A stretch of 64,000 nt of DNA from Thermobispora bispora DSM 43833 (lineage in GTDB: Bacteria > Actinomycetota > Actinomycetes > Streptosporangiales > Streptosporangiaceae), in the NCBI RefSeq assembly GCF_000092645.1, contig NC_014165.1:2480001-2544000 (forward strand), written 5' to 3'. The notes under the pieces are model-generated. The model was given only the letters and a program-made list of their open reading frames with translations, made no database searches and was not told the DNA's origin. Shown one piece after another: positions 35,897 to 42,180 of the stretch (positions are counted from its first letter, which is position 1; the number at the start of each line of letters is the position of its first letter). The translations under genes and the position numbers were made by a program.

Positions 35897-36610
35897 TCAG
35901 ATGCCCTCGGCGTCGCGGATCAGCTCGAGGGCGTCCTCGTCGGCGGTGCGCCCGTTATCCGCGGCGGCCTGGATGACGAGCAGCTCCCCGGTGTGGGTGA
36001 CGTGCACGCGCATCGCCTCGGCGGCCGCGCCCGGGTCCCGGGCCTCGATCGCGGCGAGGATCGGCTCGTGCTCGGCGGCGATGTCGGCGAGCGAGCGGGA
36101 CCGGTCCACGGTGGAGGCGCCGAGCATGATCGTGGAGTCCCGGAGCCGGCCGACCGTGTCGACGAGCTTCCGGTTGCCTCCGGCGGCGAGCAGGATCTCG
36201 TGGAACGCGCGGTCATGCCGCATGAAGAGCGGCTCGTCGTGCGCCTCGGCCGCGGCGCGCATCGCGGCCAGCTCCTCCTTGAGCCGGATGATCAGCGCTT
36301 CGTCGGCGTGCCGGGCGGCCCGCCGGGTCGCGGGCACCTCGAGCAGCAGCCGGAGCTGGAAGATCTCGGCGATCTCCCGGGGGTCGCGGCGGAGCACGCG
36401 GAAGCCCTTGCTGCGCTCGAACCGGACCATGCCGGCCTCGGCGAGCCGGAGCATCGCCTCCCGGACCGGGGTCCGGGACACGTTGAGCTGCGCGGCGAGC
36501 TGGTACACCGAGTACAGCTCCCCCGCCTTGAGCTCACCGGAGTGAATGGCCTCACGGACCGACTCGAGCACCTGCTCGGTGAGGCTGGACGTACCGTCGA
36601 CCGCTCGCAC
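35897..36610 (-). CDS. GntR-family (FCD) transcriptional regulator
   Basis: A 237-residue regulator. The winged-helix domain (about 8-72) includes SLTEQVLESVREAIHSGELKAGELYSVYQLAAQLNVSRTPVREAMLRLAEAGMV. The FCD ligand domain (about 85-225) has the metal-binding pattern with D and H in HDRAFHEILLAAGGN and HVTHTGEL. The frame is open to 36706, but the GTG at 36610 gives the usual family length and keeps the operator outside the gene. It is divergent from the lactonase/transhydrogenase operon, whose promoter carries a palindrome, so it probably represses that operon with a carboxylic-acid ligand. Confidence 0.92.
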   Translation of the reverse strand: MRAVDGTSSLTEQVLESVREAIHSGELKAGELYSVYQLAAQLNVSRTPVREAMLRLAEAGMVRFERSKGFRVLRRDPREIAEIFQLRLLLEVPATRRAARHADEALIIRLKEELAAMRAAAEAHDEPLFMRHDRAFHEILLAAGGNRKLVDTVGRLRDSTIMLGASTVDRSRSLADIAAEHEPILAAIEARDPGAAAEAMRVHVTHTGELLVIQAAADNGRTADEDALELIRDAEGI

Positions 36611-36680: not shown

Positions 36681-36709
36681 TTGACACGTAGCATGCTACA
36701 TGCCACATT
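36681..36709 (+). promoter_or_regulatory. Promoter with palindromic operator for the MBL/transhydrogenase operon
   Basis: TTGACA (36681-36686) and CACATT (36704-36709) are 17 bases apart. The perfect 12-bp palindrome GTAGCATGCTAC (36688-36699) fills the spacer. A protein bound there would block RNA polymerase. The divergent GntR-FCD regulator is the obvious candidate. Confidence 0.7.
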
Positions 36710-36750
36710 CCAGTCACCTACCGGTTAGCCCAACCACCAGGGGAGCGGCG

Positions 36751-37551
36751 ATGAAACTGCACGTGCTCGACTGCGGGGCGATGAGCTGTGACCTCACCTG
36801 GCTGCTGCTCAAGCCAGGCCGCACCATCCGGCCCCGCTCGGAGCGGGACAAGCCGGTCGAGTGGTACCCCTGCACCACCCACGCCGTCCTCGTAGAGACG
36901 GGCGAGGGCACCCTCCTGTGGGACACGAGCTGCCCGCGTGACTGGGAGACCCGGTGGGAGCCGACCGGGCTGCAGGAGTACTTCCCCTACGACCAGGTCA
37001 CCGAGGAGCAGTACCTCGACGCCCAGCTCGGCCGGCTCGGCTTCGCCCCGGAGAACATCGACTACGTGGTCCTCTCCCACCTGCACTTCGACCACGCCGG
37101 CAACGTGCGGCTGTTCGCCAACACCGGGGCCAAGCTGATCTGCCACCAGAAGGAGAAGGAGTTCGCCTTCGGCTTCGAGGGCCCGTTCACCGGGGCGCAC
37201 CTCAAGGCCGACTACGAGGGCCTCGAGTTCGAGACCGTCTCCGGCGACACCGAGATCCTCCCCGGGGTGACGCTGATCGAGGCGCCCGGCCACACCCCCG
37301 GCACCATGGCGATGCGCGTCGACCTCCCCGAGACCGGCACCATGATCTTCACGTCCGACGCCGTCTACATGGGCGACTCGTACGGCCCGCCGGCCGTGCC
37401 CGCGGCGATCGTCAACGACCTGAGCGCCTGGTACGCCTCGGTGGAGAAGATCCGCTCGATCGCCGAGCAGAGCAACGCCATGGTCGTCTTCGGGCACGAC
37501 GCCGAGCAGCTCCGCTCCATGCGCACCGCCCCCCACGGCTACTACAGCTGA
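36751..37551 (+). CDS. MBL-fold metallohydrolase, lactonase (AttM/BlcC/AiiA) type
   Basis: A 266-residue di-zinc hydrolase. The metal motif is SHLHFDHAGN (about 109-118), followed by GHTPG, the bridging aspartate in FTSDAVYMG and a late FGHD. The tyrosine in SDAVY corresponds to the catalytic tyrosine of AHL/gamma-butyrolactone lactonases. GGGGAGCGG precedes the ATG at 36751. It is first in a four-gene operon with an iron-dependent transhydrogenase 9 bp downstream. By analogy with the Agrobacterium blc operon it may open gamma-butyrolactone or a related lactone. An acyl-homoserine-lactone substrate is possible but fits the neighbours less well. Confidence 0.88.
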   Translation: MKLHVLDCGAMSCDLTWLLLKPGRTIRPRSERDKPVEWYPCTTHAVLVETGEGTLLWDTSCPRDWETRWEPTGLQEYFPYDQVTEEQYLDAQLGRLGFAPENIDYVVLSHLHFDHAGNVRLFANTGAKLICHQKEKEFAFGFEGPFTGAHLKADYEGLEFETVSGDTEILPGVTLIEAPGHTPGTMAMRVDLPETGTMIFTSDAVYMGDSYGPPAVPAAIVNDLSAWYASVEKIRSIAEQSNAMVVFGHDAEQLRSMRTAPHGYYS

Positions 37552-37560
37552 GAGGCCGAC

Positions 37561-38844
37561 GTGTACGCGCCCAGCAATCCTGAGTCGATCTTCACCTACG
37601 GCGCGCCGGCGCTGAAGTTCGGTCCCGGCGCCTCCGCCGAGATCGGGTTCGATCTCAGCCAGTCCGGCGTACGCCGCGTGCTCGTCATCACCGACCCCGG
37701 TGTGGCGGCGACCGGCGCCCCGCAGCGGATCGCCGAGCAGATCGGCAAGTACGGCATCGCCGCGGAGGTCTACGACGGGGTCCACGTCGAGCCCACCGAC
37801 GAGAGCCTGCTCGCCGCGATCGAGCACGCCCGCGCCACCGGGCCGTGGGACGCCTACGTCGCGGTCGGCGGCGGGTCGAGCATCGACACGGCGAAGGCCG
37901 TCAACCTGCTCACCACCAACCCGGGCGAGCTGATGGACTACGTCAACGCCCCGGTGGGCGGGGGCCGCGCCCCGTCCGAGCCGCTCAAGCCGCTGATCGC
38001 GGTGCCCACCACCACGGGGACCGGGTCGGAGAGCACCACGATCTGCGTGCTCGACGTGCTCGCCCTGAAGGTGAAGACCGGGATCAGCCATCCGCGGCTC
38101 CGCCCGGTGCTCGCCGTGGTCGACCCGGACCTGACCCTCACCCAGCCGGCCGGGGTGACCGCCTCGGCGGGGATGGACATCCTCTGCCACGCGCTGGAGA
38201 GCTACACCGCCCGGCCGTACACCTCCTACGAGCACAAGCGGCCCGAGGAGCGCGTGCCGTACTGCGGCGCGAACCCGATCTCCGACATGTGGTCCGAGCA
38301 GGCGATGCGCCTCCTCGCCGAGTCGTTCCGTGCCGCGGTGCGCGACGGGAACGACACCGAGGCGCGGGCGAAGATGGCCCTCGCCGCGACCTTCGCCGGG
38401 CTCGGGTTCGGCAACGCCGGCGTGCACATCCCGCACGCCAACGCCTACCCGATCGCCGGCCGGGTGAAGGACTTCCACCCCGACGGCTACCCGGACGCCG
38501 AGCCGCTGGTGCCGCACGGCATGGCCGTGGCGCTCACCGCGCCCGAGGCGTTCCGGTTCACCTTCGAGGCGAACCCGGAGCGGCACCTGCGCGCCGCCGA
38601 GCTGCTCGACCCGGGGGCGGAGCGGCCGGACGACCCGGCGGAGTTCCTGCCCCGGGTGCTGCTCCGGCTCATGCAGGACATCGGCATGCCGAACGGCATC
38701 GGCGGTGTCGGCTACGACAGCGGTGACGTCCCCGCCCTGGTCGAGGGGGCGATGAAGCAGCAGCGGCTGCTCGCCACCGCGCCCAAGCCGGTGACCGAGG
38801 AGGACCTCGCCGGCATCCTGACCCGCTCCATTACGCTGTGGTGA
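37561..38844 (+). CDS. Iron-containing alcohol dehydrogenase, hydroxyacid-oxoacid transhydrogenase type
   Basis: A 427-residue enzyme of the ADHFE1/HOT branch of Fe-ADHs. The NAD-binding VAVGGGSSIDTAKAVNLL lies at about 99-116, and TTTGTGSE at about 150-157. The Fe ligands fall in AGMDILCHALES (about 204-215), GNAGVHIPHANAYPIAG (about 284-300) and VPHGMA; the second motif is characteristic of HOT rather than simple alcohol dehydrogenases. HOT oxidises 4-hydroxybutyrate to succinic semialdehyde while reducing 2-oxoglutarate to D-2-hydroxyglutarate. The GTG start follows GAGAGG. It is flanked by a lactonase-like and a 2-hydroxyacid dehydrogenase gene, which fits that reaction. Confidence 0.88.
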   Translation: MYAPSNPESIFTYGAPALKFGPGASAEIGFDLSQSGVRRVLVITDPGVAATGAPQRIAEQIGKYGIAAEVYDGVHVEPTDESLLAAIEHARATGPWDAYVAVGGGSSIDTAKAVNLLTTNPGELMDYVNAPVGGGRAPSEPLKPLIAVPTTTGTGSESTTICVLDVLALKVKTGISHPRLRPVLAVVDPDLTLTQPAGVTASAGMDILCHALESYTARPYTSYEHKRPEERVPYCGANPISDMWSEQAMRLLAESFRAAVRDGNDTEARAKMALAATFAGLGFGNAGVHIPHANAYPIAGRVKDFHPDGYPDAEPLVPHGMAVALTAPEAFRFTFEANPERHLRAAELLDPGAERPDDPAEFLPRVLLRLMQDIGMPNGIGGVGYDSGDVPALVEGAMKQQRLLATAPKPVTEEDLAGILTRSITLW

Positions 38845-38848
38845 CGCC

Positions 38849-39325
38849 ATGCCGATCTACGACCTGCGCTGCGGTGAGGGACACCGGTTCGAGGTGATCC
38901 AGTCCTTCACCGCACCGCTCCCGGACTGCCCCTACTGCGGCGCGGCCACGACCAAGGTCCCCAGCCGGGTCGCGGTGACCGGCCTGGCGAGCGCCCCGCC
39001 GCCGCCCGAGCGGATGCCGCAGACCTGGCGCGGCACCTACGGGGCGAACCGGGAGTACGTCGCCGAGCTGCGCAGGACCGCCGACGCCCGGCGCAGGCTC
39101 GAGGAGAAGTACCCCGAGCTCGCCGGGGACCGGCGGCCCATCCTCGCGCACGAAGGCCGGTTCGAGCGCGCCCCGCTGCGCGCCGGGGACCCGCTGCCGG
39201 GCGCCGCCCCGAGCCATGCCCACGCCCACGGGCACGGGCATGGTCACGGGCACGGCCACGGGCATGGGCATGGCCACGGGCGGGCCACCGGCGAGCGGAG
39301 CCGACCCTCGGAGGTCGCGCCCTGA
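38849..39325 (+). CDS. FmdB-family zinc ribbon protein with His-rich tail
   Basis: A 158-residue protein. The N-terminal zinc ribbon (MPIYDLRCGEGHRFEVIQSF to CPYCG, residues 1-32) is FmdB-like, with the first knuckle as CxxxH and the second as CPYC. A central helical region follows. The C-terminal tail (about 124-145) is a run of alternating His and Gly or Ala, suited to metal binding. It lies 4 bp after the transhydrogenase gene and overlaps the start of the next. A role in metal delivery to the iron-dependent transhydrogenase or Fe-S flavoprotein is a reasonable guess, not shown. The tail is encoded by a near-perfect hexanucleotide repeat at 39221-39282. Confidence 0.82.
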   Translation: MPIYDLRCGEGHRFEVIQSFTAPLPDCPYCGAATTKVPSRVAVTGLASAPPPPERMPQTWRGTYGANREYVAELRRTADARRRLEEKYPELAGDRRPILAHEGRFERAPLRAGDPLPGAAPSHAHAHGHGHGHGHGHGHGHGHGRATGERSRPSEVAP

Positions 39326-42180
39326 AGCCGTCCCAGCTCGCCGAGGTGCTGCGCAAGGCCGGGGTGCGCGACGTCGACGCGTCGTCACGCCGCCGGGCGG
39401 AGTACTCTTCCGACGCCTCCCTCTACCGGGTGCTCCCGTCGGTCGTGGTCTTCCCCCGCGACGCCGATGACGTCGCCGCCGCGCTCTCGGTCTGCCGCGC
39501 CGAAGGGGTGCCCATCACCGCGCGCGGTGCCGGCACCTCGATCGCGGGCAACGCCGTCGGCCCCGGGGTGATCCTCGACTTCAGCCGCCACATGCGGCGG
39601 GTGAGGTCCCTCGACCCGGAGTCCCGCACCGCCGTGGTCGAGCCCGGGGCCGTACTCGGCACCCTGCAACGCCTGGCCGCGCCGTACGGCCTGCGGTTCG
39701 GGCCGGACCCGTCGACGCACAGCCGGTGCACGATCGGCGGCATGATCGGCAACAACGCGTGCGGGTCGCGGGCGCTCGCCTACGGCCGCACCGCCGACAA
39801 CGTGCTCGCCCTCGACGTGCTGACCGGGGGCGGGGAACGGCTCTCCACCAGGTCGGAGATCTCCCCCACGCTCACCACGCTCCGCCGGGTGGTCCGGGAC
39901 CACCTCGCGGTGATCCGCACCGAGCTCGGCCGGTTCCCCCGGCAGATCTCCGGCTACTCCCTCGAGCACCTCCTGCCCGAACGCGGGTTCGACGTGGCCA
40001 AGGCCATGGTCGGCTCCGAGGGCACCTGGGCGCTGGTGCTCGAGGCCGAGCTCAGGCTGGTGGCCACGCCCGCCCGGACCGTGCTCGTCGTGCTCGGGTA
40101 CCCGGACATGGCGGCGGCCGCCGACGCGGTGCCCGCGCTCCTGCCGCACCGGCCGGTCGCCCTGGAGGGCTTCGACGCGCGCCTCATCGACCTGGTGCGC
40201 GACCGGCGGGGCCCGTCCCGGGTGCCGCCGCTCCCCGGCGGGCGGGGCTGGCTCCTCGTCGAGCTCGGCGGCGAGCACGAGGCCGAGCTGCGCGCCGCGG
40301 CCCGCGCGCTCATCGCCGACGCGGGCGCGGCCGACAGCATGGTGATCGAGGACACGGGGCACGCGGCGGCGGTCTGGCGGATCCGGGAGGACGGCGCCGG
40401 GCTCGCCGCGCGCACCCCCGCCGGCGCGCCGGCGCACGCCGGGTGGGAGGACGCCGCCGTGCCGCCGGAGCGGCTCGGCGCGTACCTGCGGGACTTCGAG
40501 GAGCTGCTCGCCGCGCACGGGCTCACCGGCCTGCCGTACGGCCACTTCGGCGACGGCTGCGTGCACGTGCGGATCGACTTCCCGTTCCACCGCCCCGACG
40601 GCGCCGCCGCGTTCCGGGCGTTCCTGCTCGACGCCGCCCGCCTGGTCGCCGGGTACGGCGGCTCGATGTCCGGGGAGCACGGCGACGGCCGGGCCCGCAG
40701 CGAGCTGCTGCCGCTCATGTACTCCCCCGCCGCGCTCGCCGCGTTCGCCGCGGTGAAGGACGTCTTCGACCCCGGCGGCGTGCTCAACCCGGGGGTGATC
40801 GTCCGGCCGGCCCGGGCCGACGCGGACCTCCGGCTCCAGCCGCCACCCCCGCCGGTGCGCGGCACCGTGTTCCGCTACCCGCACGACCGCGGGGACCTGG
40901 CCACCGCGGTGCACCGGTGCACCGGGGTCGGCCGGTGCCGGGCCGAGACGGTGACCGGGGACACGGTGATGTGCCCGTCCTACCAGGCCACCCGGGACGA
41001 GAAGGACTCCACCCGGGGCCGGGCCCGGGTGCTGCAGGAGGCGGTGAGCGGCGCCCTCCCCGGCGGGCTGCGCGCGCCCGAGGTCCGCGAGGTGCTCGAC
41101 CTGTGCCTCGCCTGCAAGGGCTGCCTGTCGGACTGCCCGACCGGGGTGGACATGGCCACCTACAAGGCCGAGGCGCTGCACGCCGCCTACCGGCGCCGGC
41201 TGCGCCCCGCCTCGCACTACACCCTGGGGTGGCTGCCGCGCTGGGCCGCGCTCGCCGGCCTCGCCCCCGGGGCGGCCAACGCGCTGCTCCACGCCGGTCC
41301 GCTCACCGGGCTGATCAAACGGCTCGGCGGGATCGACCCCCGGCGGGAGCTGCCGTACTTCGCTCCGAAGCGGTTCCGGCGGCACCGGCCGCCGCGATCG
41401 GAATCCCGGCCCGGACGTCCCGGCGAAGGCCCGGGGCGGACCGCGCCCGGCCGCACCGCGCTGCTGTGGGTGGACACGTTCACCGACCATTTCGCCCCGG
41501 AGATCGCGCTCGCCGCGATCGAGGTGCTGGGCCGGGCCGGCGTGGCCGTGGCCGTGCCCCGGGCCTCGCTCTGCTGCGGCCTCACCTGGATCTCCACCGG
41601 GCAGCTCACCACCGCCCGCCGCAGGCTCCGCCGTACCGTCGACGCCCTGGCCCGGCACGCGCGGGCGGGGATGCCGATCATCGCGCTCGAGCCGTCCTGC
41701 GCCGCGGTGCTGCGGTCGGACGCGCTCGACCTGCTCGGCCCGGACGACCCGGCCGCGCGGGCCGTCTCCGGGTCGGTGCGCACCCTCGCCGAGTTCCTGA
41801 GCGGCCTGCCGGGCTGGACCCCGCCCGACCTGACCGGGGTGGAGATCCTCGCCCAGCCGCACTGCCACCACCACGCCGTGCTGGGCTGGGACACCGACCG
41901 GGAGCTGCTCTCGCGCGCGGGCGCCTCGGTCACCTCGGTCGGCGGGTGCTGCGGGCTCGCCGGCAACTTCGGCGCCGAGCGCGGCCACTTCGAGATCTCG
42001 GTCGCGGTGGCGGAGACCCGGCTGCTCCCCGCGGTACGGCAGGCCGCGGAGGGCACGATCCTGCTCGCCGACGGGTTCTCCTGCCGCACGCAGCTCGCCC
42101 AGCTCGCCGGCGCCCGGGCCTACCACCTCGCCGAGCTGCTCGCCGGGCGGGCCGCCCCCTCAGGCGTGCACCAGCCGTGA
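39322..42180 (+). CDS. FAD-binding and 4Fe-4S fused 2-hydroxyacid dehydrogenase (YdiJ/D-2-hydroxyglutarate dehydrogenase type)
   Basis: About 952 residues. The N-terminal FAD_binding_4 domain has ARGAGTSIAGNAVG, GPDPSTHSRCTIGGMIGNNACG; the FAD-oxidase domain has GHFGDGCVHVRIDF and SGEHGDGRARSELL. Iron-sulphur motifs CTGVGRC (about 533) and CLACKGCLSDCP (about 594) follow, then two CCG-type motifs (CCGLTW, CCGLAGN). This is the YdiJ architecture, active on D-2-hydroxyglutarate in E. coli; D-lactate is an alternative. GGAGG (39310-39314) is ideally spaced for CTG 39322, which overlaps the preceding TGA as CTGA. GTG 39346 lacks a ribosome binding site. In this operon it would regenerate 2-oxoglutarate for the transhydrogenase. 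Confidence 0.9.
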   Translation: MKPSQLAEVLRKAGVRDVDASSRRRAEYSSDASLYRVLPSVVVFPRDADDVAAALSVCRAEGVPITARGAGTSIAGNAVGPGVILDFSRHMRRVRSLDPESRTAVVEPGAVLGTLQRLAAPYGLRFGPDPSTHSRCTIGGMIGNNACGSRALAYGRTADNVLALDVLTGGGERLSTRSEISPTLTTLRRVVRDHLAVIRTELGRFPRQISGYSLEHLLPERGFDVAKAMVGSEGTWALVLEAELRLVATPARTVLVVLGYPDMAAAADAVPALLPHRPVALEGFDARLIDLVRDRRGPSRVPPLPGGRGWLLVELGGEHEAELRAAARALIADAGAADSMVIEDTGHAAAVWRIREDGAGLAARTPAGAPAHAGWEDAAVPPERLGAYLRDFEELLAAHGLTGLPYGHFGDGCVHVRIDFPFHRPDGAAAFRAFLLDAARLVAGYGGSMSGEHGDGRARSELLPLMYSPAALAAFAAVKDVFDPGGVLNPGVIVRPARADADLRLQPPPPPVRGTVFRYPHDRGDLATAVHRCTGVGRCRAETVTGDTVMCPSYQATRDEKDSTRGRARVLQEAVSGALPGGLRAPEVREVLDLCLACKGCLSDCPTGVDMATYKAEALHAAYRRRLRPASHYTLGWLPRWAALAGLAPGAANALLHAGPLTGLIKRLGGIDPRRELPYFAPKRFRRHRPPRSESRPGRPGEGPGRTAPGRTALLWVDTFTDHFAPEIALAAIEVLGRAGVAVAVPRASLCCGLTWISTGQLTTARRRLRRTVDALARHARAGMPIIALEPSCAAVLRSDALDLLGPDDPAARAVSGSVRTLAEFLSGLPGWTPPDLTGVEILAQPHCHHHAVLGWDTDRELLSRAGASVTSVGGCCGLAGNFGAERGHFEISVAVAETRLLPAVRQAAEGTILLADGFSCRTQLAQLAGARAYHLAELLAGRAAPSGVHQP

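Follow-up and report, generated by a model that had tools for sequence, protein, structure and literature searches.

Introduction

In Agrobacterium, the products of the blcABC genes open gamma-butyrolactone and convert gamma-hydroxybutyrate through succinic semialdehyde to succinate, governed by a local repressor, as set out in the available part of the account (PMC3907764). Degradation of tetrahydrofuran (THF), in the excerpted description, runs from 2-hydroxytetrahydrofuran, by gamma-butyrolactone or an aldehyde, to gamma-hydroxybutyrate and on to succinate (PMC7758286). In C. elegans, HPHD-1, a hydroxyacid-oxoacid transhydrogenase (HOT) and the ADHFE1 ortholog, makes D-2-hydroxyglutarate as it oxidises 3-hydroxypropionate, and DHGD-1 recycles the product, according to the sections at hand (PMC10096224). 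According to a survey of the family, all HOT proteins (cd08190) carry two inserts that other iron-containing alcohol dehydrogenases lack, of 19 and 13 residues in human ADHFE1; that enzyme holds its cofactor tightly, and the consulted portion of the same source records HOT activity outside animals as unknown (PMC5125639). Here we describe a locus in a 64,000-nucleotide stretch of Thermobispora bispora DSM 43833 (contig NC_014165.1, positions 2,480,001 to 2,544,000; hereafter the window), in which a divergent GntR-type regulator and four co-directional open reading frames, encoding a metallo-beta-lactamase (MBL)-fold enzyme, a HOT-type enzyme, an FmdB protein and an FAD/Fe-S dehydrogenase, lie at about 35.9-42.2 kb.

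We propose, with a probability of roughly 0.58, that this is a GntR-repressed operon in which the opening of a small lactone would be joined to a HOT/D-2-hydroxyglutarate shuttle for oxidation of the resulting hydroxyacid, most likely 4-hydroxybutyrate.

Results

A first-pass annotation, made from the sequence of the window, had named the four genes and the divergent regulator. All five are open frames where it placed them and are recognised by Pfam, from which domain identities are taken throughout; subfamilies were judged by NCBIfam equivalog cutoffs. The regulator, of the GntR/FCD (FadR) type, is on the minus strand (35897..36610; Pfam GntR 3.9e-16, FCD 3.7e-27). On the plus strand lie an MBL-fold lactonase-like hydrolase of 266 residues (36751..37551; Lactamase_B 9.4e-27), a predicted HOT of the iron-containing alcohol dehydrogenase (Fe-ADH) family with 427 residues (37561..38844; Fe-ADH 1e-43 together with ADH_Fe_C), an FmdB-family zinc-ribbon protein of 158 residues with a His-rich tail (38849..39325; Zn_ribbon_8 4.6e-11), and an FAD/4Fe-4S/CCG dehydrogenase of 944 residues (39346..42180; FAD_binding_4, FAD-oxidase_C, Fer4_8 and CCG), which we propose to be a D-2-hydroxyglutarate dehydrogenase. 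The genes are as tightly packed as had been claimed, with 9 bp between MBL and HOT, 4 bp between HOT and FmdB, and 20 bp between FmdB and the FAD gene, counted to a GTG start at 39346.

Assignment of the iron-type enzyme as a HOT is supported by its inserts and its relatives. Its alignment with a non-HOT member of the Fe-ADH family contains additional segments of 17 and 13 residues at the two insert places. Among relatives that PGAP names HOT, one on a plasmid of Mycobacterium dioxanotrophicus shares 74.7% identity with it, one on plasmid pYYL1.1 of Rhodococcus ruber YYL 62.9%, and a third 73.8%. The HOT-type call of the first-pass annotation holds by association, not by assay. Its description of the route as cofactor-free has to be reworded as needing no free NAD(P), because animal HOT holds a tightly bound cofactor. 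At E<=1e-3 the only match to the protein in its own genome is itself. Among haloarchaea, three named HOTs that were aligned (L095, L098 and L102) keep the first insert and lack the second, 13-residue one.

The nearest PDB relative of the MBL enzyme is the lactonase GcL (4.2e-45). The features of dinuclear lactonases are present: HxHxDH, the later His/Asp/His ligands, and a Tyr three positions after the Asp. This Tyr, in Asp-x-x-Tyr, is catalytic in dinuclear MBL lactonases. The motifs HLHFDH, GHTPG, SDAVY and GHD align with those of GcL and of the haloarchaeal and Deinococcus lactonases described below. On NCBIfam the best model is AhlS (160.7 bits against a cutoff of 475), and AttM gives 114.7 bits against 390; the protein misses the AttM equivalog cutoff and hence is not filed as BlcC, which reduces the earlier label "BlcC-type" to a superfamily resemblance. 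By its motifs and scores we classify it as a lactonase-like enzyme of a subfamily that has no NCBIfam model of its own. A beta-lactamase assignment was considered and rejected, as the listed models score far below their cutoffs.

To what extent the genes travel together was surveyed in two samples: 200 genomes of the order, where some candidates per genome were scored so that copies may be missed, and a set of named HOT loci comprising the 80 best of 299 confirmed matches, in which partners were counted at >=45-55% identity within 6 kb. MBL relatives of at least 60% identity occur in at least 16 genomes of the order, the own genome included, and HOT adjoins in 16 of 16. HOT itself, at >=60% identity over >=150 residues and with interrupted copies counted, is found in at least 45. 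Among the 80 HOT loci, MBL is present in 15, FmdB in 15, both in 14, the FAD enzyme in 30 (in L007 as a 6% fragment only) and GntR in 14; eight loci have all four genes, L007 with its fragment included. In this sample the complete set is confined to Sphaerisporangium, Thermocatellispora, Planotetraspora and Nonomuraea, which are members of the Streptosporangiaceae. The arrangement is therefore that of two separable modules, MBL-HOT-FmdB and HOT-FAD. The first-pass annotation had asked whether the set is conserved as a unit: many loci keep the HOT-FAD pair and 8/80 hold everything, but it is not one unit across the order. It had also made its pathway depend on homologous operons keeping both oxidative enzymes; that expectation fails only in part, since many loci keep HOT with FAD.

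Some loci show decay or other neighbours. The lactonase gene appears broken, matching as two pieces in different frames and with the middle missing, in Streptosporangium subroseum (L005:8525-8951) and Streptomyces niphimycinicus (L013:6770-7050), and the HOT beside each was matched over its length. In one genome (G110 C1:7008891-7014477) the HOT match is split into halves separated by about 3.6 kb, and the lactonase is matched over residues 1-186 only. HOT genes lacking the partners adjoin acyl-CoA ligase and cyclase genes in Blastococcus (for example L020, L022, L073), and tryptophan dioxygenase, kynurenine monooxygenase and a mutase-like gene in Actinomadura (for example L035, L052, L054), all named by eye.

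The FAD enzyme has the domain order of YdiJ and is 28% identical to E. coli YdiJ. It is closer to the enzymes that follow HOT on the M. dioxanotrophicus and R. ruber plasmids (57% and 50% identity). Alignment to human D2HGDH (6lpn) shows that the metal and C1/C2 site is kept (His434, His441, Glu475, His476), a site that is common to D-lactate dehydrogenases and so does not discriminate. Further positions were compared in 34 rows, consisting of 32 HOT-linked FAD sequences (E<=1e-60 and aligned over the stretch), a duplicate of the window protein, and YdiJ. The equivalent of Arg386, matched by motif counting, is Arg in 34/34 rows. Thr390, Lys401, Tyr432 and Asn443 form the C5-carboxylate site of the human enzyme, in the pocket that recognises the distal end of the substrate. 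At the position of Asn443, Arg is found in all 32 HOT-linked sequences and in YdiJ; in mouse LDHD the same position is the hydrophobic Ile407. Tyr432 is kept in 32/32 HOT-linked sequences. By motif counting, Lys401 and Thr390 are absent from the FAD enzyme and likewise from YdiJ. Lys401 is essential in human D2HGDH, where its mutation abolishes activity, and E. coli YdiJ is strict for D-2-hydroxyglutarate in the excerpt available. Within a comparison that covered human D2HGDH, mouse LDHD and YdiJ, the pocket residues favour an acidic 2-hydroxyacid and fall short of proof for D-2-hydroxyglutarate.

In the order survey, the C-terminal half of the FAD family was matched at E<=1e-60 in 169/200 genomes, with or without HOT, and these relatives are mostly 50-60% identical among the matches listed. 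They are possibly housekeeping D-2-hydroxyglutarate dehydrogenases. The enzyme was also considered as a marker of HOT genomes; this was rejected, the family being nearly universal, and only adjacency is informative.

Upstream of the MBL gene, the palindrome GTAGCATGCTAC (36688-36699) picked out by the first-pass annotation is the core of an 18-bp palindromic site, CACGTAGCATGCTACATG (36685..36702; consensus CATGYAGCATGCTRCATG), which we predict to be bound by GntR. The site fills the spacer behind a perfect -35 in the plus-strand promoter region (36681..36709), where TTGACA at 36681-36686 and CACATT at 36704-36709 are separated by 17 bp. At <=3 mismatches it occurs once in the own genome of 4.19 Mb (a single contig of 4,189,976 bp), and a reversed control pattern has 0 matches. 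There is no second site at this threshold, so no wider regulon exists from which to read the substrate. At <=2 mismatches, the operator is present in 12/12 HOT loci with a GntR gene divergent from MBL or HOT, in 0/2 with a downstream GntR gene, and in 0/66 with no GntR match. It occurs once, with 0 mismatches and adjoining MBL, in seven of eight relatives' genomes; the eighth (G181) has only a tandem repeat elsewhere, and its HOT locus (L082) has no GntR match. The reversed control is found at one place in 3/8 of these genomes at <=2 mismatches. The palindrome is thus real, and the association of operator with divergent GntR bears out the predicted GntR control, with binding and repression still conditional on that association.

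In most GntR-bearing orthologs the operator block is near TTGACATGCAGCATGCTACATGCC, and TTGAC directly precedes it in most (exception L016). The -35 is mostly conserved. The -10 at 17-bp spacing is poor, and because of this weak CACATT a sigma-70 consensus scan finds no promoter at the operon, so the "strong promoter" of the first-pass annotation cannot be upheld. The GntR frame could begin as far out as 36706; judged by eye, a GTG at 36608-36610 is the more likely start.

In three Microbispora loci (L009-L011), which lack a lactonase, the operator and a GntR regulator 71-72% identical to that of the window stand immediately in front of HOT. The signal sensed therefore probably belongs to the HOT step, and the lactone is a less likely inducer than the hydroxyacid, the semialdehyde or D-2-hydroxyglutarate.

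Plasmid-borne relatives speak to the substrate. On pYYL1.1, genes for a GntR regulator, HOT and the FAD enzyme lie near an annotated multicomponent monooxygenase and aldehyde dehydrogenases. The GntR protein is 51% identical over 158 residues to that of the window and its gene is co-directional with HOT, an IS1380 element standing between the two; the FAD gene directly follows HOT. A site resembling the operator with 3 mismatches (L091:11883-11900) is located about 400 bp upstream of this GntR gene and is the sole such site in 1.77 Mb scanned. A THF gene cluster of R. ruber YYL is reportedly named in the title of a published paper, and we infer that the pYYL1.1 monooxygenase genes are that cluster. 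No close relative of the monooxygenase subunit is present in the plasmid collection, where the best other match is 41%. The plasmids of M. dioxanotrophicus and R. pseudokoreensis each carry an MFS transporter gene immediately before HOT and, on the opposite strand at a distance of no more than about 4 kb, a succinic semialdehyde dehydrogenase (SSADH) gene. The FAD gene follows HOT in M. dioxanotrophicus; none is annotated there in R. pseudokoreensis.

Outside the Actinomycetota, HOT adjoins the lactonase in four of nine haloarchaeal plasmids that have a related lactonase: those of Haladaptatus caseinilyticus, H. halobius, Natronococcus occultus and Halobacterium hubeiense, with overlapping gene ends in the last two. 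In Halobacterium hubeiense an SSADH gene directly follows the pair, the only such case among the annotated lactonase-HOT loci inspected. The lactonases of the other five plasmids (L112-L116) adjoin CoA ligases, acyl-CoA dehydrogenases or an L-lactate permease. In Deinococcus wulumuqiensis, the gene after HOT encodes a lactonase scoring 461.6 bits on the AttM model, above its cutoff of 390. Identity to the window MBL is only about 30% for the haloarchaeal and for the Deinococcus lactonases alike. A link of lactonase to HOT in Actinomycetota, Deinococcota and haloarchaea is thereby supported, as is a link of HOT to the FAD/Fe-S enzyme. The THF plasmid and the SSADH neighbours make 4-hydroxybutyrate the likely substrate by association.

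FmdB scores 39.9 bits on TIGR02605 (cutoff 31.3). It is present in 14/15 HOT loci with MBL and in 1/65 without, so that, in the window (38849-39325) and in the orthologs at L002-L076, it accompanies the lactonase and not the FAD enzyme. One guess is that it supplies metal to the lactonase. Its His-rich tail was considered as a conserved feature and rejected, since some orthologs have a long, His-rich tail and others have none. At the other end of the locus, the operon end at 42180 overlaps by 21 bp the end of a convergent SbcC-like frame (named by eye), and a terminator scan found no terminator-like site there.

Discussion

The order of events that we propose is as follows. The MBL enzyme would hydrolyse a small lactone to an omega-hydroxyacid; gamma-butyrolactone, or a compound closely related to it, is the most likely substrate. 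HOT would then take a hydride from this acid, which is most likely 4-hydroxybutyrate, and transfer it through tightly bound NAD to 2-oxoglutarate, so that the semialdehyde and D-2-hydroxyglutarate are formed. D-2-hydroxyglutarate would be oxidised back to 2-oxoglutarate by the FAD/Fe-S enzyme, which would deliver the electrons to the respiratory chain, probably at the level of quinone. The net effect would be to tie hydroxyacid oxidation to respiration and not to the free NAD+ pool, pulling the unfavourable oxidation of a primary alcohol forward. The semialdehyde would leave through an SSADH encoded elsewhere; the own genome has one above cutoff (G000:C1:680720-682075; 783 against 521 bits). 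Expression would be controlled by GntR bound to the 18-bp palindrome within the promoter spacer. Of the pathway as first suggested, the HOT assignment, the HOT-FAD and lactonase-HOT linkages and the 4-hydroxybutyrate context have stood up, but its substrates are assigned by association.

Several observations weigh against this reading. None of the MBL, HOT and FAD proteins reaches any of the NCBIfam equivalog cutoffs listed, and on the 4-hydroxybutyrate dehydrogenase model HOT scores 186.3 of 500 bits, less than on those for SarD, ErcA and lactaldehyde reductase. The FAD enzyme has 413.9 of the 1350 bits required by the YdiJ model and is not filed as YdiJ, so that "YdiJ-like" too describes a superfamily resemblance; the D2HGDH residue Lys401 is not conserved in it, as it is not in YdiJ. 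With its family nearly universal across the order, the enzyme may have a role unconnected with HOT. The operon contains no SSADH, and the lactonase, dehydrogenase and SSADH set of the blc type is incomplete here. Linkage has its gaps: 41/80 HOT loci have none of the other genes (2 of them cut by contig ends), in six of the 15 lactonase-HOT loci the 6-kb range shows no FAD gene (L068 runs into a contig edge), and two have a broken lactonase. Five of the nine haloarchaeal plasmids show no HOT within 3 kb of the lactonase, 6/10 haloarchaeal plasmid HOTs have no lactonase beside them (L100 being visible on one side only), and neither do 2/3 of those on Deinococcus plasmids. The HOTs found beside acyl-CoA ligases or tryptophan-degradation genes may serve other hydroxyacids. 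No further THF plasmid was found, and the THF link therefore comes from a single plasmid.

The shuttle could thus be correct and its substrate different. 3-Hydroxypropionate, 3-hydroxyisobutyrate, 5-hydroxyvalerate or 6-hydroxyhexanoate might be oxidised after the MBL enzyme has hydrolysed the corresponding lactone or ester. HPHD-1 acts on the first of these in C. elegans, in the available portion of the source; acyl-CoA ligase, acyl-CoA dehydrogenase and mutase-like genes (by eye) stand beside HOT in Blastococcus and Actinomadura; and several haloarchaea have AMP-binding or CoA-ligase genes near the lactonase. However, the SSADH and THF-plasmid neighbours indicate a C4 acid, and by general chemistry 3-hydroxypropionate gives only a strained beta-lactone. 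We consider another hydroxyacid rather unlikely. The operon might also be a loose one with no shuttle, in which an NAD(P) alcohol dehydrogenase and a D-lactate or glycolate dehydrogenase take part in a general organic-acid programme. Both HOT inserts and the 75% identity to a PGAP-named HOT argue against such a dehydrogenase, even though the nearest solved Fe-ADHs are methanol and propanediol dehydrogenases and SarD, ErcA and lactaldehyde reductase are the top Fe-ADH scores on NCBIfam, all far below cutoff. As for the flavoprotein, its nearest solved relative is mitochondrial D-lactate dehydrogenase; the Arg at the LDHD Ile407 position speaks against a hydrophobic D-lactate pocket, within a comparison limited to enzymes other than Fe-S-type D-lactate dehydrogenases. 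The HOT-FAD pairing recurs across families, and we judge a loose operon to be improbable.

The first-pass annotation had suggested that the pathway could act on actinobacterial butyrolactone signals. Under this explanation the operon would quench quorum sensing or clear signals, inactivating gamma-butyrolactone autoregulators or acyl-homoserine lactones, with HOT for clean-up. The MBL enzyme is indeed closest to acyl-homoserine lactonases, GcL in the PDB and AhlS in NCBIfam. But the same gene pair is found in haloarchaea and Deinococcus, once with SSADH next to it, the SSADH and THF-plasmid context points elsewhere, and in the Microbispora loci GntR and operator stand before HOT with no lactonase nearby. 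BlcC itself allows growth on gamma-butyrolactone and not on acyl-homoserine lactone, in the consulted part of PMC3907764. The signal proposal finds no support, and we regard it as very improbable. The lactone and 4-hydroxybutyrate shuttle remains our preferred reading.

A wider generalisation is tempting. Prokaryotic HOT might be the core of a widely shared respiratory module for hydroxyacid oxidation, in which D-2-hydroxyglutarate is an obligate intermediate instead of a by-product. A lactonase would stand in front in those lineages that receive their substrate in lactone form (Actinomycetota, Deinococcota, haloarchaea), a dedicated FAD/Fe-S dehydrogenase behind, GntR would sense the hydroxyacid or D-2-hydroxyglutarate, and FmdB would give the lactonase its metal. 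We put this forward tentatively, and in its full breadth find it doubtful. The operon and its relatives nevertheless offer a testable role for prokaryotic HOT, the oxidation of 4-hydroxybutyrate-type acids with 2-oxoglutarate as acceptor, and a candidate for the 4-hydroxybutyrate oxidation step of THF degradation. D-2-hydroxyglutarate, known in people as an oncometabolite, would in these bacteria be a normal working intermediate. Among the titles and abstract openings listed from the open-licence literature, no prokaryotic lactonase-HOT or HOT-D2HGDH operon is described, which is a weak negative.

How, then, does the locus compare with known systems? The plasmid pYYL1.1 resembles it in GntR (51% over 158 residues), HOT (63%) and the FAD enzyme (50%), with GntR upstream and FAD after HOT; it differs in the co-directional GntR, the IS1380 insertion, the monooxygenase and aldehyde dehydrogenases nearby, and in having no lactonase or FmdB annotated. 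With E. coli YdiJ, which in partial accounts clears D-2-hydroxyglutarate ascribed to SerA, the FAD enzyme shares the FAD, Fe-S and CCG/GlpC-like architecture and the Arg at the Asn443 position. It differs at 28% identity and a score below the YdiJ cutoff, and the genes on either side of ydiJ are menI and ydiK, with no HOT adjoining. D-2-hydroxyglutarate accumulates in E. coli MG1655 when ydiJ is deleted (PMC9504171). The DhdR-D2HGDH system of Achromobacter also has a GntR regulator by a D-2-hydroxyglutarate dehydrogenase gene and a short palindrome, bound by DhdR; in contrast, dhdR is co-transcribed with its target, has no adjoining hydroxyacid gene in the part of the account available, and its operator is GTTATCAGATAAC (PMC8651671).

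DHGD-1 is an ortholog of human D2HGDH, a short FAD enzyme with no Fe-S half. The C. elegans HPHD-1/DHGD-1 pair has in common with the locus that HOT makes D-2-hydroxyglutarate and a dehydrogenase recycles it, as we propose here; there, however, the shuttle serves 3-hydroxypropionate in a propionate shunt, and the sections at hand mention no lactonase (PMC10096224). The closest comparison for the route as a whole is with Agrobacterium. The second enzyme of the blc operon is, like HOT, an iron-type alcohol dehydrogenase, and the regulator of that operon, BlcR, is of the IclR type. Unlike blcABC, the locus has a HOT with 2-oxoglutarate as proposed acceptor and an FAD/Fe-S recycling enzyme, a GntR/FCD regulator, a lactonase of another subfamily, and no SSADH in the operon. 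Common to blcABC (attKLM) and the locus would be the lactonase step, the route from hydroxyacid to semialdehyde and a local regulator, on the available part of the account (PMC3907764). By this analogy, and with its substrates assigned by association, the operon appears to be a blc-like route whose hydroxyacid step has been replaced by a transhydrogenase and a recycling flavoprotein.

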